This document shows, one piece after another, positions 27,718 to 62,553 of a DNA stretch of 64,000 nucleotides; within the stretch, counting starts at the first letter, position 1, and each line of letters opens with the position of its first letter. Below the pieces are notes generated by a model, which searched no databases, was not told where the DNA came from, and was given only the letters and a program-made list of their open reading frames with translations. Source of the stretch: a virus. The position numbers and the translations under genes were made by a program. The stretch is taken from the IMG/VR virus record IMGVR_UViG_3300035156_000206, positions 62,001 to 126,000 of that record; one strand, written 5' to 3'.

Positions 27718-29739
27718 ATGTCAGAGTTTGCTCCGTTTGCGGCGCTCATCAAGAATCAATTTGATGAGATGGCCAAGGGCGAGTTGTACATTGTTGGCAA
27801 CGACAACCAGTTTGTCTGGGACATGTACCTCGCTTCTTACCCAGAAGGGACTAACGAGATCTACCGCGTCCGTTCCGAAAATGACTGCGCCTGCTGCCGC
27901 AAGTTCGTAAAGAACGTGGGCAATGTGGTGTCAATTGGTACTGACGGCTCCGTTACTACCGTCTGGGACGTAGTTGGTGCCGAAGAGCCATACGCCACCG
28001 TCGCTGCCAACATGGCGGCCGTCATCCGAGAAATGAAAATCAGCTCGGTATATCGCATGTCCGAAAAGAAGTACGGCGAAGAAATCAACTACGAGCGTCT
28101 CAGTGACGGCACTACCCAATCGTGGAACCACTTCTACGCAGTGCTGCCACAAAAGTTCCTGGCTGAATCGATTGCTGCGGCCCGTGCCGAATTCAATGTT
28201 GGCGCAAGCATGCTGCGCGACGGTCTGAAGATCATGTCGATTGATGCCCTCGATACCGTGATTGATCTGATCCAAAGCGATGCTCTGTACCGCGGCGCCG
28301 AAAAGCTGCCAGTTGTTACTGCATTCGCTGCATTGTATCGCGCGCACGCAAAACTGAAGACCGACGCAGCGCGTAACCAATTTGTGTGGCTGAACGCTAC
28401 CGCCTTTGGTGCCAAGTTCAAGAACGACGTGGCCGGCACACTGGTTGAAGCGTTGTCCAGTGGTGAAGACCTGGAAGTGGCTGTCGCCAAGTTCGAGTCC
28501 AAAGTCGACGCGACCAATTACAAGCGCACAACTGCACTGATTACGCCAGGCATGGCAAAAGCCGCATACAAGACCATCCAAGAGCTGGGCCTGGAATCGG
28601 CATTGCATCGCCGGCACGCTAAGCTGTCCGATGTAAGCGTCAACAATGTGCTGTGGGTCGATAACACGGTACAGGGCAAGATGAAGGATGGCATCGAAGG
28701 CCTGTTGATGAGCGTGGCAACGGCACCGAAGGTAACCAATCCCGAAAAGGCCGAGACTATCTCGGTTGAAGACTTCCTGACGAATGTATTGCCACAAGCA
28801 AGCTCAATGGAAGTGCTGGTTACTGGTGGGATGCAAGGTAACATGATGAGTGTCACGGCACCCATCGATCCAACATCGGCGCCATTGTTTAAATGGGACA
28901 ACAACTTTGCCTGGTCGTATAACGGCAACGTAACTGACTCGATCAAAGAACGCGTCAAGAAGGCCGGCGGCAGCATCGTTGGCGATTTGTGCTGTCGTCT
29001 GGTGTGGGACTACACCGACGATCTGGACTTCCACATGACGGAACCAGGTGGCTACAAGATCTGGTTCCGTACCATTCGGCAAAAATCGCCAAGTGGCGGC
29101 ATGCTGGACATCGATGCCAACGGCATGGACGGCATGAAAGATCACCCAGCAGAGAACATTTTCTATGCTGACCGGAACAAAATGAAGGAAGGCACGTACC
29201 GCCTGGAAGTGAATAACTTCAACCGGCGCAGTGCAAATGGTGTTGGATTCGCCGTACAGGTGGAGTTCGACGGCAAGACGATCGACATGACGTACGACCG
29301 CGTTGTGCCGGGATCCACCACGATGCATGTGGCTGATATCACGTACTCGAAGAAGGCCGGCTTTGCCATCAGCCCAATGATTCCGTCGCGTGCGAGCAGT
29401 GTGGACAAGTGGGGCATCAAGACGGAAACCTTCGTCAAGGTGAACACGCTGATGAACAGCCCGAATCACTGGGATGGGAATGCTGTGGTGCAGAAGCATT
29501 GGTTCTTCATCCTGGACGGCTGCGTGAATGACGAGCCGACTCGTGGCATCTATAACGAGTTCCTGCGCCCCGAACTGGACAAGCATCGCAAGGCGTTCGA
29601 AATGCTGGGCAACGAAACCAAGTGTCAGCCTGCTGATGAACAGCTCAGTGGTGTTGGCTTCGCAAGTGCCAAGGGCGACAGCGTTTTGGTCAACGTTACT
29701 GGCACCAAGCTGCGCAAAACGTACAAGATCACGTTTTAA
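27718..29739 (+). CDS. Large conserved protein with a C-terminal beta-sandwich domain; role unknown
   Basis: Encodes 673 residues. The N-terminal third includes a cysteine pair (NDCACCRKF). The middle is helical (residues 140-300). The C-terminal part from about 420 contains WDYTDDLDFHMTEPGGYKIWF, DIDANGMDGMKDHPAENIFYAD and EGTYRLEVNNFNRRS. This matches the D-x-D-x-H-x-x-x-P pattern of YfaP/DUF2135-like beta-sandwich domains, where acidic residues bind calcium. It is codon-rich in C/G at third positions. I recall homologues in phages and bacteria paired with a small partner like the gene at 29892. Strong promoter. Function not known. Confidence 0.7.
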   Translation: MSEFAPFAALIKNQFDEMAKGELYIVGNDNQFVWDMYLASYPEGTNEIYRVRSENDCACCRKFVKNVGNVVSIGTDGSVTTVWDVVGAEEPYATVAANMAAVIREMKISSVYRMSEKKYGEEINYERLSDGTTQSWNHFYAVLPQKFLAESIAAARAEFNVGASMLRDGLKIMSIDALDTVIDLIQSDALYRGAEKLPVVTAFAALYRAHAKLKTDAARNQFVWLNATAFGAKFKNDVAGTLVEALSSGEDLEVAVAKFESKVDATNYKRTTALITPGMAKAAYKTIQELGLESALHRRHAKLSDVSVNNVLWVDNTVQGKMKDGIEGLLMSVATAPKVTNPEKAETISVEDFLTNVLPQASSMEVLVTGGMQGNMMSVTAPIDPTSAPLFKWDNNFAWSYNGNVTDSIKERVKKAGGSIVGDLCCRLVWDYTDDLDFHMTEPGGYKIWFRTIRQKSPSGGMLDIDANGMDGMKDHPAENIFYADRNKMKEGTYRLEVNNFNRRSANGVGFAVQVEFDGKTIDMTYDRVVPGSTTMHVADITYSKKAGFAISPMIPSRASSVDKWGIKTETFVKVNTLMNSPNHWDGNAVVQKHWFFILDGCVNDEPTRGIYNEFLRPELDKHRKAFEMLGNETKCQPADEQLSGVGFASAKGDSVLVNVTGTKLRKTYKITF

Positions 29740-29742
29740 GTG

Positions 29743-29889
29743 ATGCACAGCAAGAGTCACATCCGTTTCATCCTCGGCTTCCCGTTTGGATTGGTTGCCG
29801 AGACCTTTGCACGTCTTGCCATTTGGATCAGTGGGAACCAGCTCGACGTGGATTTCAATTATTTAAGACCACCAACCAACAAGGAATAA
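29743..29889 (+). CDS. Small amphipathic protein between the two partners
   Basis: Encodes 48 residues (starts MHSKSHIRFILGFPFGLVAETFARL). ATG at 29743, three bases after the preceding stop; a GTG one codon upstream is an alternative. A hydrophobic segment (about 8-30) could associate with the membrane. No strong ribosome site, so translation may be coupled. It ends 2 bases before the next start. Confidence 0.5.
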   Translation: MHSKSHIRFILGFPFGLVAETFARLAIWISGNQLDVDFNYLRPPTNKE

Positions 29890-29891
29890 TC

Positions 29892-30299
29892 ATGGACATG
29901 AACATTTTCGAATTTGCTACCAAGAACAAACTGCGTTTCCCTTCAGCCAAGGGCGATCTGACCGTCGAGCAGCTGTGGGAACTGAAACTGCAATCTGCCG
30001 GCCGCGACGACCTGGACACCATCGCCAAGGGCATCAATGCACAGCTCAAGGCAACCGCCGAAGAAAGCTTCGTTACCACGACTCCGTCGAAGGCTAACGC
30101 CACACTGACGCTGAAGCTGGAAATCCTGAAGCACATCATCGCGGTCAAGAAACAAGAAGAAGCTGACAAGCTGAACAAGGCTGCCAAGGACGTGAAGCGC
30201 CGTACACTCACCGAACTGCTGGGCCGCAAGAACGCCGAGAAGGACGAGCAGATGACGCCAGAGCAAATCATGAAGGAACTGGAAAAGCTGGACGACTAA
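29892..30299 (+). CDS. Conserved small partner protein
   Basis: Encodes 135 residues from ATG at 29892 (AAGGA upstream). Starts NIFEFATKNKLRFPSAKGDLTVEQLWELKL, continues with EESFVTTTPSKANATLTLKLEILKHIIAVKK and a Lys/Glu-rich helical C-terminus (EQMTPEQIMKELEKLDD). I recognise it as a widespread conserved protein of phages and bacteria of unknown function, often beside a large protein like the one at 27718. It is basic and coiled-coil-like. Confidence 0.7.
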   Translation: MDMNIFEFATKNKLRFPSAKGDLTVEQLWELKLQSAGRDDLDTIAKGINAQLKATAEESFVTTTPSKANATLTLKLEILKHIIAVKKQEEADKLNKAAKDVKRRTLTELLGRKNAEKDEQMTPEQIMKELEKLDD

Positions 30300-30315
30300 G
30301 CTTGCCAGGACCTGG

Positions 30316-30341
30316 AAGGGAGCCTACGGGCTCTTTTCCTT
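30316..30341 (+). terminator. Rho-independent terminator
   Basis: AAGGGAGCC (30316-30324), TACG loop, GGCTCTTTT (30329-30337), with two G-T pairs. Confidence 0.85.
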
Positions 30342-30368: not shown

Positions 30369-30647
30369 ATGGATTTAGACGATGTTACAAATGACCCAAT
30401 GGTCGAAGAACAGAAGCGTAATGCCTCACAAGGTGCCTCAGACTATGTCGAAACTGCCATCGAGGCCGTTGGCGAAGTCATTGGCGTTGGCATCGACGCT
30501 GCTTGTGGCGCTGGGGGAGCAGTTGTTGAATTTGGTGGCGCTCTTATCGGTGGCCTTGCTGATGGTGCAGGGGCTGTACTGGGCGGTGTTGCTGACGCAG
30601 GCGGCGCTATCCTTGAAGGGATCGGATCGATCCTCGGTAACCTGTAA
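30369..30647 (+). CDS. Glycine/alanine-rich hydrophobic protein (glycine zippers)
   Basis: Encodes 92 residues. An acidic 27-residue N-terminus is followed by about 65 residues of repeated small-residue helices (AVGEVIGVGIDAACGAGGAVVEFGGALIGGLADGAGAV and so on) with many GxxxG spacings and few charges. Such sequences pack in membranes or form pores, as in some bacteriocins and Gly-zipper proteins. ATG follows AGTAGGAGATCCC. The stop overlaps the next ATG (TAATG). Possibly a membrane-active or inhibitory protein; inference only. Confidence 0.62.
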   Translation: MDLDDVTNDPMVEEQKRNASQGASDYVETAIEAVGEVIGVGIDAACGAGGAVVEFGGALIGGLADGAGAVLGGVADAGGAILEGIGSILGNL

Positions 30648-31018
30648 TGTACAAGCAAGTGATCGTGCTGCGCAAAGATTTGAACATGCGCAAGGGCAAG
30701 ATGATAGCCCAGGGGGCCCACGCATCCCATATGGCACTGGGCTTCACCTTTCCGATTGGGTGGAAGCTTTTCAAAAACCTGCGTGTTAAGTTGCGTTGGC
30801 TACGGGACGGGCATAAAAAGATTGCTGTATCTTGCCGAGATAGTGTAGAATTACTAAATATCTACGAAGCTGCCGTAAAGGCGGGGCTTCCGGTATCCTT
30901 TGTTATTGACAATGGGCACACCGAATTCAAAGGTGTAAAGACCAGTACTTGTTTGTGTATTGGTCCTGCACTTTCAACCGAAATTGACAAAATCACGGAA
31001 GATCTGCCACTATTATGA
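30647..31018 (+). CDS. Peptidyl-tRNA hydrolase 2-like protein
   Basis: Pth2-type enzymes release peptides from stalled peptidyl-tRNA. The 123-residue protein begins YKQVIVLRKDLNMRKGKMIAQGAHASHMAL, the family's first strand plus the Q-x-x-HA helix. It contains IAVSCRDSVELLNIYEAA and VIDNGHTEF, and ends with CIGPALSTEIDKITEDLPLL, matching the GPa-x-x-x-id-x-iT-x-x-L terminus. Length is typical (about 115-125). It would sustain tRNA recycling during the burst. The end overlaps the next ATG (ATGA). Confidence 0.88.
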   Translation: MYKQVIVLRKDLNMRKGKMIAQGAHASHMALGFTFPIGWKLFKNLRVKLRWLRDGHKKIAVSCRDSVELLNIYEAAVKAGLPVSFVIDNGHTEFKGVKTSTCLCIGPALSTEIDKITEDLPLL

Positions 31019-31947
31019 TCAAACGCTTCTTGGGATGCTTCGCCATCCTCGCTACTCTCGCTGCTCCTGCTTCTGCTGCTACTAACGTAGTGAATGGGTG
31101 CGGGTGGAACCATCCTGGAACGAATCCTTACAAGGGTGGTTCCATCAAGGCGTTGGATGACTACACGGACATCCCAGAGTACGCGATGATCAAGCTGAAG
31201 CAGCGCATCGCCAAGGAGCAGTACGACAAGATCGTGGACATCAAGCGCGACAGCATCTCGGGCGGCTTCTTGCCAGAAATCACGGACATGCACTTCGCGG
31301 CCAATACTGTATGCCGCTACGTCAATCGCACCGTGTGGAAGCCTGATCACGTAGAAACGGCCCAAGTATACTGCGAAGGTAAGTACTGCGTATTGATCCC
31401 AAAAGTGTGTGGCAATGTCAGTCGCGTTCGTCCGTTGCCAAAGGTTACTCCGGGAACACGTCCTCCCGTGCTGGTAGTGGTGCCTTTCATCCCGGTTCCT
31501 CCTGTTGATGGAATTGTTCCTCCAGGAAATGAAGTGCCTGTATCGAAGCGACCTGTACCAAATGTGCCGGTCCCACCTCCAACCGTCCCACCATTTCCAA
31601 TGTTTGGTGACCATCCGGTGTTTCCCAGGCCAACCCCAGTGATTCCTAGGCCCGTACCAACACCAACACCAACACCAACACCAACACCAACACCAACACC
31701 AACACCAACACCAACACCAACACCAGTTCCACCGCCGCCTTATGTGCCGCCTCCGCCGCCTTATGTGCCGCCTCCACCGCCTTATGTGCCGCCTCCACCG
31801 CCTTATGTGCCGCCTCCACCGCCTTATGTGCCGCCACCACCGCCTTATGTGCCGCCACCGATACCTGACACACCAACGCCGATACCAGAACCTTCGACGA
31901 TGCTGTTGATGGGACTTGGGGTTGCTATCTTGCTGGCACGCAAATGA
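31015..31947 (+). CDS. Secreted protein with Pro-rich repeats and a C-terminal PEP-CTERM sorting signal
   Basis: Encodes 310 residues. Signal peptide 1-21 (ending APASA) is followed by a cysteine-containing domain to about residue 140 (MHFAANTVCRYVNRT, VYCEGKYCVLIPKVCGNVSRV). A long proline region comes next, with about a dozen Pro-Thr dipeptides and six copies of a seven-residue YVPPPPP repeat. The end reads PEPSTMLLMGLGVAILLARK: a PEP motif, a hydrophobic segment and a basic terminus, the tripartite PEP-CTERM signal recognised by exosortase. The protein would be exported, held, then processed by the host exosortase onto the surface or into exopolysaccharide. Confidence 0.82.
   Translation: MIKRFLGCFAILATLAAPASAATNVVNGCGWNHPGTNPYKGGSIKALDDYTDIPEYAMIKLKQRIAKEQYDKIVDIKRDSISGGFLPEITDMHFAANTVCRYVNRTVWKPDHVETAQVYCEGKYCVLIPKVCGNVSRVRPLPKVTPGTRPPVLVVVPFIPVPPVDGIVPPGNEVPVSKRPVPNVPVPPPTVPPFPMFGDHPVFPRPTPVIPRPVPTPTPTPTPTPTPTPTPTPTPTPVPPPPYVPPPPPYVPPPPPYVPPPPPYVPPPPPYVPPPPPYVPPPIPDTPTPIPEPSTMLLMGLGVAILLARK
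31657..31725 (+). repeat. Hexanucleotide repeat (CCAACA)n
   Basis: About 11.5 perfect tandem copies of CCAACA encode the Pro-Thr linker of the PEP-CTERM protein. Such a perfect array is prone to length change by slippage; in-frame unit length (6) keeps the reading frame. Confidence 0.95.
31733..31861 (+). repeat. 21-bp coding repeats (six YVPPPPP units)
   Basis: Near-identical 21-bp units (CCGCCTTATGTGCCGCCTCC with small changes) repeat six times and encode the proline-tyrosine stalk. Lies within the coding region. Confidence 0.93.
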
Positions 31948-32060: not shown

Positions 32061-32072
32061 CACTCGGCACAA

Positions 32073-32098
32073 AGAGCTCACTTTGGTGGGCTCTTTTT
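32073..32098 (+). terminator. Rho-independent terminator
   Basis: AGAGCTCAC (32073-32081) pairs with GTGGGCTCT (32086-32094, one T-G pair), then TTTTT. Confidence 0.9.
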
Positions 32099-32235: not shown

Positions 32236-32243
32236 CGTCATGA
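32217..32243 (+). CDS. Eight-codon leader peptide overlapping the acb1 start
   Basis: ATG at 32217 follows AAGGA at ideal spacing and encodes MNTEQDPS before a TGA that overlaps the acb1 ATG (ATGA at 32240-32243). This is the only good ribosome site near acb1, so ribosomes finishing the leader would restart on acb1. A translational-coupling or attenuation device is likely; it has not been tested. Confidence 0.5.
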   Translation: MNTEQDPS

Positions 32244-32755
32244 CCTTACTTGAACTATCCCCTCCAGTTAATACCACAGGCACATATGCTGCCGTAACCT
32301 TCTCTCCAAAGACAATCGCTAAGCTTATACGCTTTTGCGAGGAAAACGGCGTAAAGAACGTTTTAAACGCTGACAAATTCCATACAACGCTAATTTACAG
32401 TCGTAAAGAAATGCCAGATTATAAAGCAGCTGGTGACCTAAAAACCAAACTAATCGGTGAGCCTGAAGAGCTGTTGATCTGGAAGACGCGAAGCGAAGAC
32501 AAAGATAAGAAGCCCTCCAACTGCTTGGTATTGAAGTACAAATGTCCGGCCCTGGTGGCACGTCACAATCAGCTGATGAAAGAACATGAAGGCACCTACG
32601 ACTTTGATGAGTTTACTCCACACATCACTCTGTCGTACAATATCGGTGATGATTCGATCGACCATCTCCAAGAGAAGCTGAAGGAGTTTGGGGAGATCGA
32701 GATTGACCACGAGTATACCGAGAAACTAGATCTAAACTGGGCAACGAAAAAATGA
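32240..32755 (+). CDS. acb1: Acb1-type anti-CBASS 2H phosphodiesterase
   Basis: Encodes 171 residues with two HxT motifs, FHTTLIYS (His48, Thr50) and PHITLSYN (His128, Thr130), at the spacing of the 2H phosphoesterase fold. Further blocks specific to T4 gp57B/Acb1 are present: GTYAAVTFSP (14-23), SRKEMPDYKA (54-63), NCLVLKYKCPALVARH (94-109) and HEYTEKLDLNW (157-167). Acb1 hydrolyses the cyclic oligonucleotides used by CBASS, silencing the effector. Length is close to T4 Acb1 (152). It is co-transcribed with DHFR, whose ATG overlaps its stop. Confidence 0.88.
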   Translation: MTLLELSPPVNTTGTYAAVTFSPKTIAKLIRFCEENGVKNVLNADKFHTTLIYSRKEMPDYKAAGDLKTKLIGEPEELLIWKTRSEDKDKKPSNCLVLKYKCPALVARHNQLMKEHEGTYDFDEFTPHITLSYNIGDDSIDHLQEKLKEFGEIEIDHEYTEKLDLNWATKK

Positions 32756-59859: not shown

Positions 59860-62553
59860 ATGAGTTATATTTCCACATGGCGCAATCGGGATACGATTGT
59901 CGTTTGGGAACGTACCGAAGAAGGCCGCATCACAAAGAACTACCCTTCCCCGTACTACTTCTACATTGAGAACCCTGACGGCAAGTTTAAGTCGATCTTC
60001 GGCAAGAACCTTAGCCGCCTAAAGTTCAAGACGCAGGATGAATTCAAGGAAGCTGTTCAAGAATGCTTGGATGATGACATCCCTGTATACGAGTCTGACA
60101 TTGGTCCAGACTTGAAAGTGCTTGCGACGCACTACTTCGAAGTTGAGCCACCGAAGCTGAATACCACACTGTTAGACATTGAGGTCGATTACGACCCATT
60201 GATTGGTTTCAGCTCGATCACCAACCCTTACGCTCCTATCAACGCGATTGCGTTACACCACTACTGGTCTAAAGAATCAGTCGTGTATGCTGTACCCCCA
60301 CCACACTGGGATCCAAGTACCTTCGATGAGTCGCTGCGACTCCTGTCGAAGATCGTTATATGCAAGAACGAACGTGAGCTGTTGCAGCACATGCTGCGTG
60401 AATTCAAAGACTCTGACTGCCTATCTGGCTGGAACAGCGACTTCTTTGACTTGCCGTACATTTGTAAGCGCATTGAGCTCGTGCTCGGTAAGACAGAGCT
60501 TGACAAGATGTCCTTTCCAAACTGTGGCAAGAACACAGTTCGTTGGCGCGAAGTTGAGAAGTTTGGTAAGATCTCACACACGGTAGAACTGCGTGGCCGG
60601 ATCAAGCTCGACTATATGGAACTGTTCAAGAAGTACGAGATGGACAAGCGAGCCAATTACAAGTTGGAAACCATTGCTGAAGAGATCTTACCAGAGCTGA
60701 AGAAGCTGACGTACGATGGATCACTGGCTCAACTGTACCGCAACGACTTCAACCATTTCATTCGATACAACATTCGAGATACGGAGATTCTGAAGGGCTT
60801 TGAAGACAAGCTCGGTTACATCGACTTGGCTAACGTAATGTATCACTCCGCATGTGGTCAAGCCTCACAAGTGTTCGGTACTGTGCGTCTAGCTGACTTA
60901 TCGATTATCAACTACTGTCACAACACCATGAACGTAAAAGTTCCTGACTGGGTGGCAAAGGAAGACGGTTCAATTGAAGGAGCTATTGTGCTGTTGCCTC
61001 AAGTAGGCATGCACGATTGGACGGGATCTGTCGACATTGGATCCCTGTATCCATCAGCTATCCGAAGCATTAACATCTCACCTGAGACATTGGTCGCACA
61101 GTTTTCTGCTAAGGCAGATGCGTGGTTAGCCATTGCCAAAGGTCTGGATACTGAACTTCTGTTGGAGTACAATGATGGTAGCACTGAGCTGCACACTGCA
61201 GATGAATGGCGCACAATCATTCATGATAACAAGTGGGCTGTGTCAGGGTACGGAACGATCTTTAGGCAGGACAAACAAGGCGTAGTTCCAGCACTGCTAA
61301 CCGATTGGTTCTCAACTCGTAAGAAGTACCAGAAGTTGAAAGTCGAATGGGGCGACAAATATCGTGAGTTGGAGAAGCTGGGCTTGAAGGATACGCCCGA
61401 GTACGAAGAGGCTAAGATGAAGACAGCCTACTTCGATCGCTTGCAGTATGTCTACAAGATCAAACTGAACTCGACTTATGGTGCGTTGACCAACTATCGA
61501 TTCCGGTTCTTTGACCTGCGTACGGGTGAATCAACGACTGCAACTGGTCGACAGATTCTGTTCCACCAGGTCCGCAAGATTGCTGAGACATTGGATGGTA
61601 ATTATGATGTGGATTTCCCACAGTACAATACTACCAAAGACTGCGACGAGAAAGGCATGCCACACCACTTAGCTCTTCACGGTCCTAAGTTCAATGGCGA
61701 GTTCCAAACAGAATCAGTCATCTATGGCGACACTGACTCTTGTTACTTCCTTACACACGCGGATAACGAGGCAGATGCGATTAAAATGGCGGACTACGTT
61801 GCAGATGTTGTCAACAAGTCTTTCCAGGAATTCATGCAGAGGTCGTTCTTGTGTCACCCAGGCTTTGATAACCTGATTAAGGCAGGCCGTGAAGTGGTGT
61901 CTGATCGTGGGATCTTTGTCGATAAGAAGCGGTATGTACTTCACCTAGTGAACCTGGACGGCAAGCCTGTTGATAAACTGAAGGTGATGGGTCTTGAAAT
62001 GCGTAAGACCACTACTCCAAAGGTCATCCAGAACTTCTTGAAAGAGATCGTATCACGCATCCTTCGCGGCGAAGACTGGGACGAAATCAATGATCAGATC
62101 ATTGAATATCGTGACCATGTTGTCACCAAGATGGATTTGCTGGATATTGGACTTCCTAAGGGTTGCAACAAGATGGAGGAGTATGCTCTCAAGAAGGCAG
62201 CTGGCAGGGACTCAACAGGGAAGAAGTACACTATTCCTGGACACGTTGCTGCTGCACTGCACTACAACGAGGCGCTGAAGATATATGGCGACTTGGAGAG
62301 CCCAGAGATTGTTTCAGAGATGAAGGTGAAGGTGTTCTACTTGGACAAGCCCGTAAATGGTTTCAAGAGCATTGCACTGCCAACAGATCTGGATCGAGCT
62401 CCTGATTGGTTTACAGAGAACTTCAATATCAACCGTGGCGATCACGCACAACGATTGATTGACAATAATCTAGGCCACATCTTTAAAGCGATCGGCAAAG
62501 AAGTACCAACAAGACAAACACTGCTGTTTAACAGCCTCTACAGCTTCGAATAG
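59860..62553 (+). CDS. DNA polymerase, family B (T4 gp43 type)
   Basis: Replicative polymerase with proofreading. The 897-residue protein (from ATG 59860; a TTG one codon earlier is possible) has ExoI LLDIEVD (near 105), ExoII WNSDFFDLPYI (near 190) and ExoIII YNIRDTEIL (near 302). The polymerase motifs are A, SVDIGSLYPSAIRSI (near 392), B, KLNSTYGALTNYRF, and C, YGDTDSCYF (near 621). Length matches T4 gp43 (898). The last residues, RQTLLFNSLYSFE, probably bind the clamp encoded next door. Confidence 0.97.
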   Translation: MSYISTWRNRDTIVVWERTEEGRITKNYPSPYYFYIENPDGKFKSIFGKNLSRLKFKTQDEFKEAVQECLDDDIPVYESDIGPDLKVLATHYFEVEPPKLNTTLLDIEVDYDPLIGFSSITNPYAPINAIALHHYWSKESVVYAVPPPHWDPSTFDESLRLLSKIVICKNERELLQHMLREFKDSDCLSGWNSDFFDLPYICKRIELVLGKTELDKMSFPNCGKNTVRWREVEKFGKISHTVELRGRIKLDYMELFKKYEMDKRANYKLETIAEEILPELKKLTYDGSLAQLYRNDFNHFIRYNIRDTEILKGFEDKLGYIDLANVMYHSACGQASQVFGTVRLADLSIINYCHNTMNVKVPDWVAKEDGSIEGAIVLLPQVGMHDWTGSVDIGSLYPSAIRSINISPETLVAQFSAKADAWLAIAKGLDTELLLEYNDGSTELHTADEWRTIIHDNKWAVSGYGTIFRQDKQGVVPALLTDWFSTRKKYQKLKVEWGDKYRELEKLGLKDTPEYEEAKMKTAYFDRLQYVYKIKLNSTYGALTNYRFRFFDLRTGESTTATGRQILFHQVRKIAETLDGNYDVDFPQYNTTKDCDEKGMPHHLALHGPKFNGEFQTESVIYGDTDSCYFLTHADNEADAIKMADYVADVVNKSFQEFMQRSFLCHPGFDNLIKAGREVVSDRGIFVDKKRYVLHLVNLDGKPVDKLKVMGLEMRKTTTPKVIQNFLKEIVSRILRGEDWDEINDQIIEYRDHVVTKMDLLDIGLPKGCNKMEEYALKKAAGRDSTGKKYTIPGHVAAALHYNEALKIYGDLESPEIVSEMKVKVFYLDKPVNGFKSIALPTDLDRAPDWFTENFNINRGDHAQRLIDNNLGHIFKAIGKEVPTRQTLLFNSLYSFE

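Follow-up and report, generated by a model that had tools for sequence, protein, structure and literature searches.

A phage-encoded MHFG-family PEP-CTERM protein that may be sorted by the exosortase of its host

The window analysed here is a stretch of 64,000 nucleotides (positions 62,001 to 126,000) of the IMG/VR virus record IMGVR_UViG_3300035156_000206, which is 292 kb long. An open reading frame of 310 amino acids with an ATG start is located at 31015-31947 on the plus strand and encodes a PEP-CTERM protein. The gene, its parts and its surroundings are as follows:

30314..30339, plus strand: terminator-like hairpin upstream of the putative cassette (consensus match only)
30369..30647, plus strand: short 92-aa ORF rich in Gly and Ala, which may open a three-gene cassette (ORF list)
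30647..31018, plus strand: Pth2-type peptidyl-tRNA hydrolase, the upstream neighbour (PF01981, 3e-30; phrog_1866)
31015..31947, plus strand: gene of the phage MHFG-family PEP-CTERM protein, 310 aa (ORF; NF038119, 167.8 bits against a cut-off of 100; own-genome search concordant)
31015..31077, plus strand: residues 1-21, MIKRFLGCFAILATLAAPASA, forming a Sec-type signal peptide with the cut predicted before ATN (read from the sequence)
31096..31452, plus strand: residues 28-146, the MHFG domain, with five conserved Cys and with MHFA replacing MHFG (profile, alignments, AlphaFold2)
31453..31881, plus strand: Pro-rich stalk, holding both repeat arrays (sequence)
31656..31725, plus strand: (ACCAAC)11.7 repeat, translated as PTPTPT... 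(tandem-repeat scan)
31735..31856, plus strand: 21-bp repeat, 5.8 copies, translated as PPPPPYV (tandem-repeat scan)
31882..31944, plus strand: PEP-CTERM tail IPEPSTMLLMGLGVAILLARK (TIGR02595 and PF07589 above their curated cut-offs)
32071..32096, plus strand: terminator-like hairpin, 11 pairs and a T run, downstream of the PEP-CTERM gene (consensus match only)
32240..32755, plus strand: gene of the anti-CBASS protein Acb1, directly downstream and listed as context only (PF23474, 8.2e-34)

The PEP-CTERM gene is real and belongs to a phage operon. Its ATG lies within the end of pth2, a gene of the archaeal-model Pth2 type, with an overlap of 4 nt. Given this overlap and the flanking terminator-like hairpins, which were about as common in shuffled sequence (3 in the region against 2.5 expected), it may close a small cassette at 30369-31947. 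Profile and PHROG searches gave no family match for the 92-aa ORF. The GC3 of the PEP-CTERM gene was 0.66 and lay inside the range of the neighbouring genes (0.47-0.67).

The initial annotation had described the protein as a signal peptide, a Cys-rich domain, a PT/PPPPPY stalk and a terminal PEP tail, and all four parts were confirmed. The signal peptide has a charged n-region (K, R), a hydrophobic stretch with a maximal KD9 of 2.6 and an AxA cut site, and the predicted cut lies between MIKRFLGCFAILATLAAPASA and AT. The tail, about residues 289-310 of 310, scored 20.8 bits with TIGR02595 (cut-off 16) and 28.6 bits with PF07589 (cut-off 20.7). This match is not a product of chance, because the independent full family model NF038119, 'MHFG family PEP-CTERM protein', also matched the protein with an E-value of 5.6e-49; the earlier proposal that a phage encodes a true PEP-CTERM protein is thereby upheld. 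TIGR02595 matched no other ORF of the 292-kb record. A search of the record for an exosortase was negative, so the protein would have to use that of the host. No match of the protein was obtained with PHROG or PADLOC.

The window protein reads MHFA instead of the literal MHFG. MHFA also occurs in bacterial members that score above the NF038119 cut-off (L172, L173); the name motif is thus no strict requirement, and the family membership of the window protein stands. Its five Cys residues are conserved among the phage and bacterial relatives, and the domain alignment of the phage sequence with 43 bacterial sequences has 25 invariant columns, 5 of which are Cys. An AlphaFold2 model of residues 22-155 reached a pLDDT of 90.7 and a pTM of 0.81. 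No fold match to the domain model was found in the PDB or in the viral library at E <= 0.001, and a profile search against the PDB sequences gave no match to the domain, which leaves no structural hint of its activity.

A screen of 394 genomes from a single Burkholderiales family gave chromosomal copies of NF038119 in 85, and the known bacterial range of the protein family rests on this one bacterial family. These genomes were selected with a 16S query, which we take to be of the Oxalobacteraceae type, and the identity of the bacterial family is presumed accordingly. NF038119 was absent from all 399 genomes sampled from the order to which both this bacterial family and the betaproteobacterial MAG G001 belong, and an order-wide search with alignment A1 gave 0 of 330 genomes. 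In about 13 of the 20 regions examined the gene was flanked on one side by map and glnD and on the opposite side by rpsB, tsf, pyrH and frr, so that these copies are chromosomal and not prophage genes. The bacterial proteins share with the window protein the domain with its Cys residues and MHF core, a Pro/Ala-rich linker and the PEP-CTERM tail. They are mostly encoded between map and rpsB and mostly have a short N-terminus and a PExxTWAMLLAGL-type tail, whereas the phage copy lies beside pth2, reads MHFA, ends in the tail PEPSTMLLMGLG and has a repeat-built PT/PPPPPYV stalk. An exosortase (PF09721) was encoded in 85 of 85 MHFG-positive genomes and in 154 of 309 MHFG-negative genomes of the same bacterial family (Fisher p about 5e-22, a value which overstates independence as the genomes are related). 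The initial annotation had predicted a host with an exosortase, and this fits the co-occurrence in all 85 genomes.

The window protein alone as a query retrieved no relatives from viral contigs. The domain alignment A1 yielded 19 IMG/VR contigs and the wider alignment A2 another 5, giving 24 in total, among them contigs of 342, 238, 170 and 369 kb. The gene was complete in 23 of these, L206 being a cut copy of L207. All ten viral homologues scanned in NCBIfam passed NF038119. The tail scored above a curated cut-off in 19 of the 23 complete proteins (PF07589 for 14 of the first set, TIGR02595 for the 5 later ones) and below it in L208, L210, L211 and L212. The initial annotation had missed that NF038119, a bacterial family already on record, includes this domain, and that the domain is not a one-off in viruses. 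One domain family is common to chromosomal proteins of exosortase-bearing Burkholderiales and to at least 24 other viral contigs. Single-protein searches of INPHARED gave no match in isolate phages, and PLSDB gave none in plasmids. No exosortase was found in the viral contigs with alignment A3 and two short Oxalobacteraceae-type patterns. Two sets of candidates were rejected. The genome_contigs match L003 shares only the signal peptide with the window protein, and seven IMG/VR contigs retrieved with a PEP-CTERM tail pattern (L115-L121) encode unrelated PEP-CTERM proteins, which may be viral or belong to host flanks.

The existence of a close cellular family would suit a recently captured host gene carried as a functionless passenger. 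In line with this, 50 virus records have a neighbour of the MHFG gene, primase-like or phrog_1735, in common with the window, and PF07589 detected a PEP-CTERM tail in none of them, which places the MHFG gene outside that conserved gene set. A passenger is nevertheless very hard to reconcile with the best identity of only about 48% between the window domain and the bacterial copies (range about 38-48%), or with a base composition inside the range of the neighbouring genes and an open frame that has been kept. The MHFG domain is also under purifying selection in those phage pairs that could be compared. The dN/dS ratios of L200/L203, L196/L201, L198/L201 and L196/L198 were about 0.14-0.30 (Nei-Gojobori, short sequences); they describe homologues of other phages, the window gene having no close relative.

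In a tree of 83 domains most phage sequences fell outside the bacterial ones and were more diverse, and the window protein, on a long branch, came close to one group of bacterial sequences, a position with no firm support. As this tree was rooted at the midpoint and built from a short alignment in which long branches meet, it leaves the direction of transfer unfixed. It is conceivable, at a low probability, that phages own a diverse, early-expressed family of exosortase-sorted proteins and that the bacterial MHFG copies between map and rpsB descend from phages and were kept for their effect on infection.

The gene neighbourhoods of the viral relatives bear on the time of expression. In the smaller phages examined the MHFG gene was accompanied by genes for SSB, YqaJ, RecT, DNA polymerases A and III and helicase. 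It followed the SSB gene in L202, with an identical gene order in L212, and the YqaJ and RecT genes in L207. A DNA polymerase A gene lay upstream in L201, and polymerase, helicase or AAA genes occupied the same strand in L211, L208 and L205. Because the gene of the smaller phages resides in this replication and recombination block, usually away from structural genes, its product is probably made early, as judged by gene order only. Other phage hallmark or replication genes nearby were a DNA polymerase gene in L203, a DNA ligase gene in L231, tRNA nucleotidyltransferase genes in L195 and L215, a tail protein gene in L229, and portal and terminase genes in L209. A structural component of the virion, or a spanin-like envelope protein active in lysis, could likewise be envelope-directed and carry a proline-rich stalk. 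This explanation is highly improbable, since the genes of L201, L202, L211 and L212 stand with replication and recombination genes while the large tail-like proteins (judged by size and order, not by profile) are encoded on the opposite strand, and since the protein has no PHROG match at all.

The N-termini of the viral homologues were heterogeneous. A standard signal peptide is present in the window protein and, as judged by eye, in L202, L212 and L213, and many others have only a short uncharged hydrophobic N-terminus. Judged by the available start codons, no hydrophobic stretch precedes the domain in L208, L209, L228, L230 and probably L211; some homologues of this kind still end in a PEP-CTERM tail. 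Not all viral homologues would thus be exported through a standard signal peptide. These proteins, together with the four tails below the cut-off, would agree with a tail that is a mere membrane anchor or a vestige, the MHFG domain acting at the inner membrane or in the cytoplasm without any exosortase. This is improbable, because the PEP motif was kept in most phage and bacterial members despite a diverging linker, an exosortase was encoded in every family-positive bacterium, and the signal peptide of the window protein is canonical.

The overall reading which we prefer, at a probability of about 0.5, is a phage-borne MHFG PEP-CTERM protein that is produced early and, once sorted by the exosortase of the host, changes the infected cell at its surface. 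The PEP-CTERM/exosortase (EpsH) system was described in bacteria that possess their own exosortase, and phages are not mentioned in that report (Haft et al. 2006, PMC1569441). The window protein has the same elements, namely a signal peptide and a C-terminal PEP motif followed by a hydrophobic helix and a basic end. The features that define the system (PMC1569441), together with the exosortase co-occurrence, make the following route very probable for it in the infected cell: export by Sec, retention in the inner membrane through the PEP-CTERM helix, recognition by the exosortase of the host, and release to the envelope or into extracellular polysaccharide. There the protein would alter the cell surface, perhaps most plausibly by keeping competing phages from adsorbing or entering. 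Superinfection exclusion is favoured as the purpose on account of the early-type gene placement and the envelope-directed product.

The main rival to superinfection exclusion is a modification of the matrix. The sorted protein would then join the exopolysaccharide and alter flocculation or biofilm formation, which would favour spread or shelter infected cells. PEP-CTERM proteins have been linked to exopolysaccharide (PMC1569441), and PepA has a part in floc formation in Aquincola (PMC9850573); moreover, the tail of L230 scored weakly, below the cut-off, on the PepA model. The homology to PepA is, however, limited to the tail, and the position among early genes suggests an action within one infection cycle, so that we regard this purpose as rather unlikely. 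The window protein shares the type of sorting tail with PepA and gave no match to the PepA model. PepA is the product of an RpoN (sigma-54)-dependent host gene (PMC9850573), whereas sigma-54-like motifs in the window were no commoner than chance.

Phage proteins that depend on a host sorting route for exclusion are familiar from another system. T5 Llp and phi80 Cor are phage exclusion proteins that rely on host lipoprotein sorting. The window protein would be their exosortase counterpart, exclusion being hypothetical in its case. The likeness to Llp and Cor, as well as to P22 SieA and CwpV, is one of envelope location, with no sequence relation shown. SieA is an envelope-located superinfection-exclusion protein (PMC10883804), and CwpV is an envelope-located host protein of Clostridioides difficile that stops phages (PMC4737114).

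Phages thus appear to borrow the exosortase sorting system of bacteria. No viral protein on the PEP-CTERM/exosortase route was described in the open-access literature searched. If the preferred reading of an exosortase-sorted phage protein is true, phages turn a Gram-negative surface-sorting system of poorly understood function to their own use; they offer a new handle on the role of exosortase clients and, in the MHFG domain, a target for structural study that has no solved relative. The gene might also serve as a host-range marker, as phages carrying it should infect exosortase-bearing bacteria.

Several further genes were observed in the window and in the related contigs. Acb1 is followed in the window by a DHFR gene and then by a gene for a ClpP-like protease, and a nicotinamide phosphoribosyltransferase gene (phrog_448) is located at 225-1862. 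The region 27718-30299 holds phrog_1735 and phrog_2018 genes. As phrog_2018 was present in 45 of 50 viral contigs carrying phrog_1735, mostly directly after it, the two form a conserved two-gene module, to which no function is assigned. In the 238-kb phage (region L210:3141-10771) a phrog_1735 homologue precedes the MHFG gene by 5 kb, as it does in the window, and the gene order around phrog_1735 and MHFG is possibly common to both. Two contigs encode a second PEP-CTERM protein that lacks the MHFG domain (L199:17613-18509 and L213:9318-9896), and one of these genes is located directly upstream of the MHFG gene. The gene adjoining MHFG at L204:8668-9948 encodes a 2-aminoadenylosuccinate synthetase (PurZ-type), which suggests that this phage has a modified-base genome.
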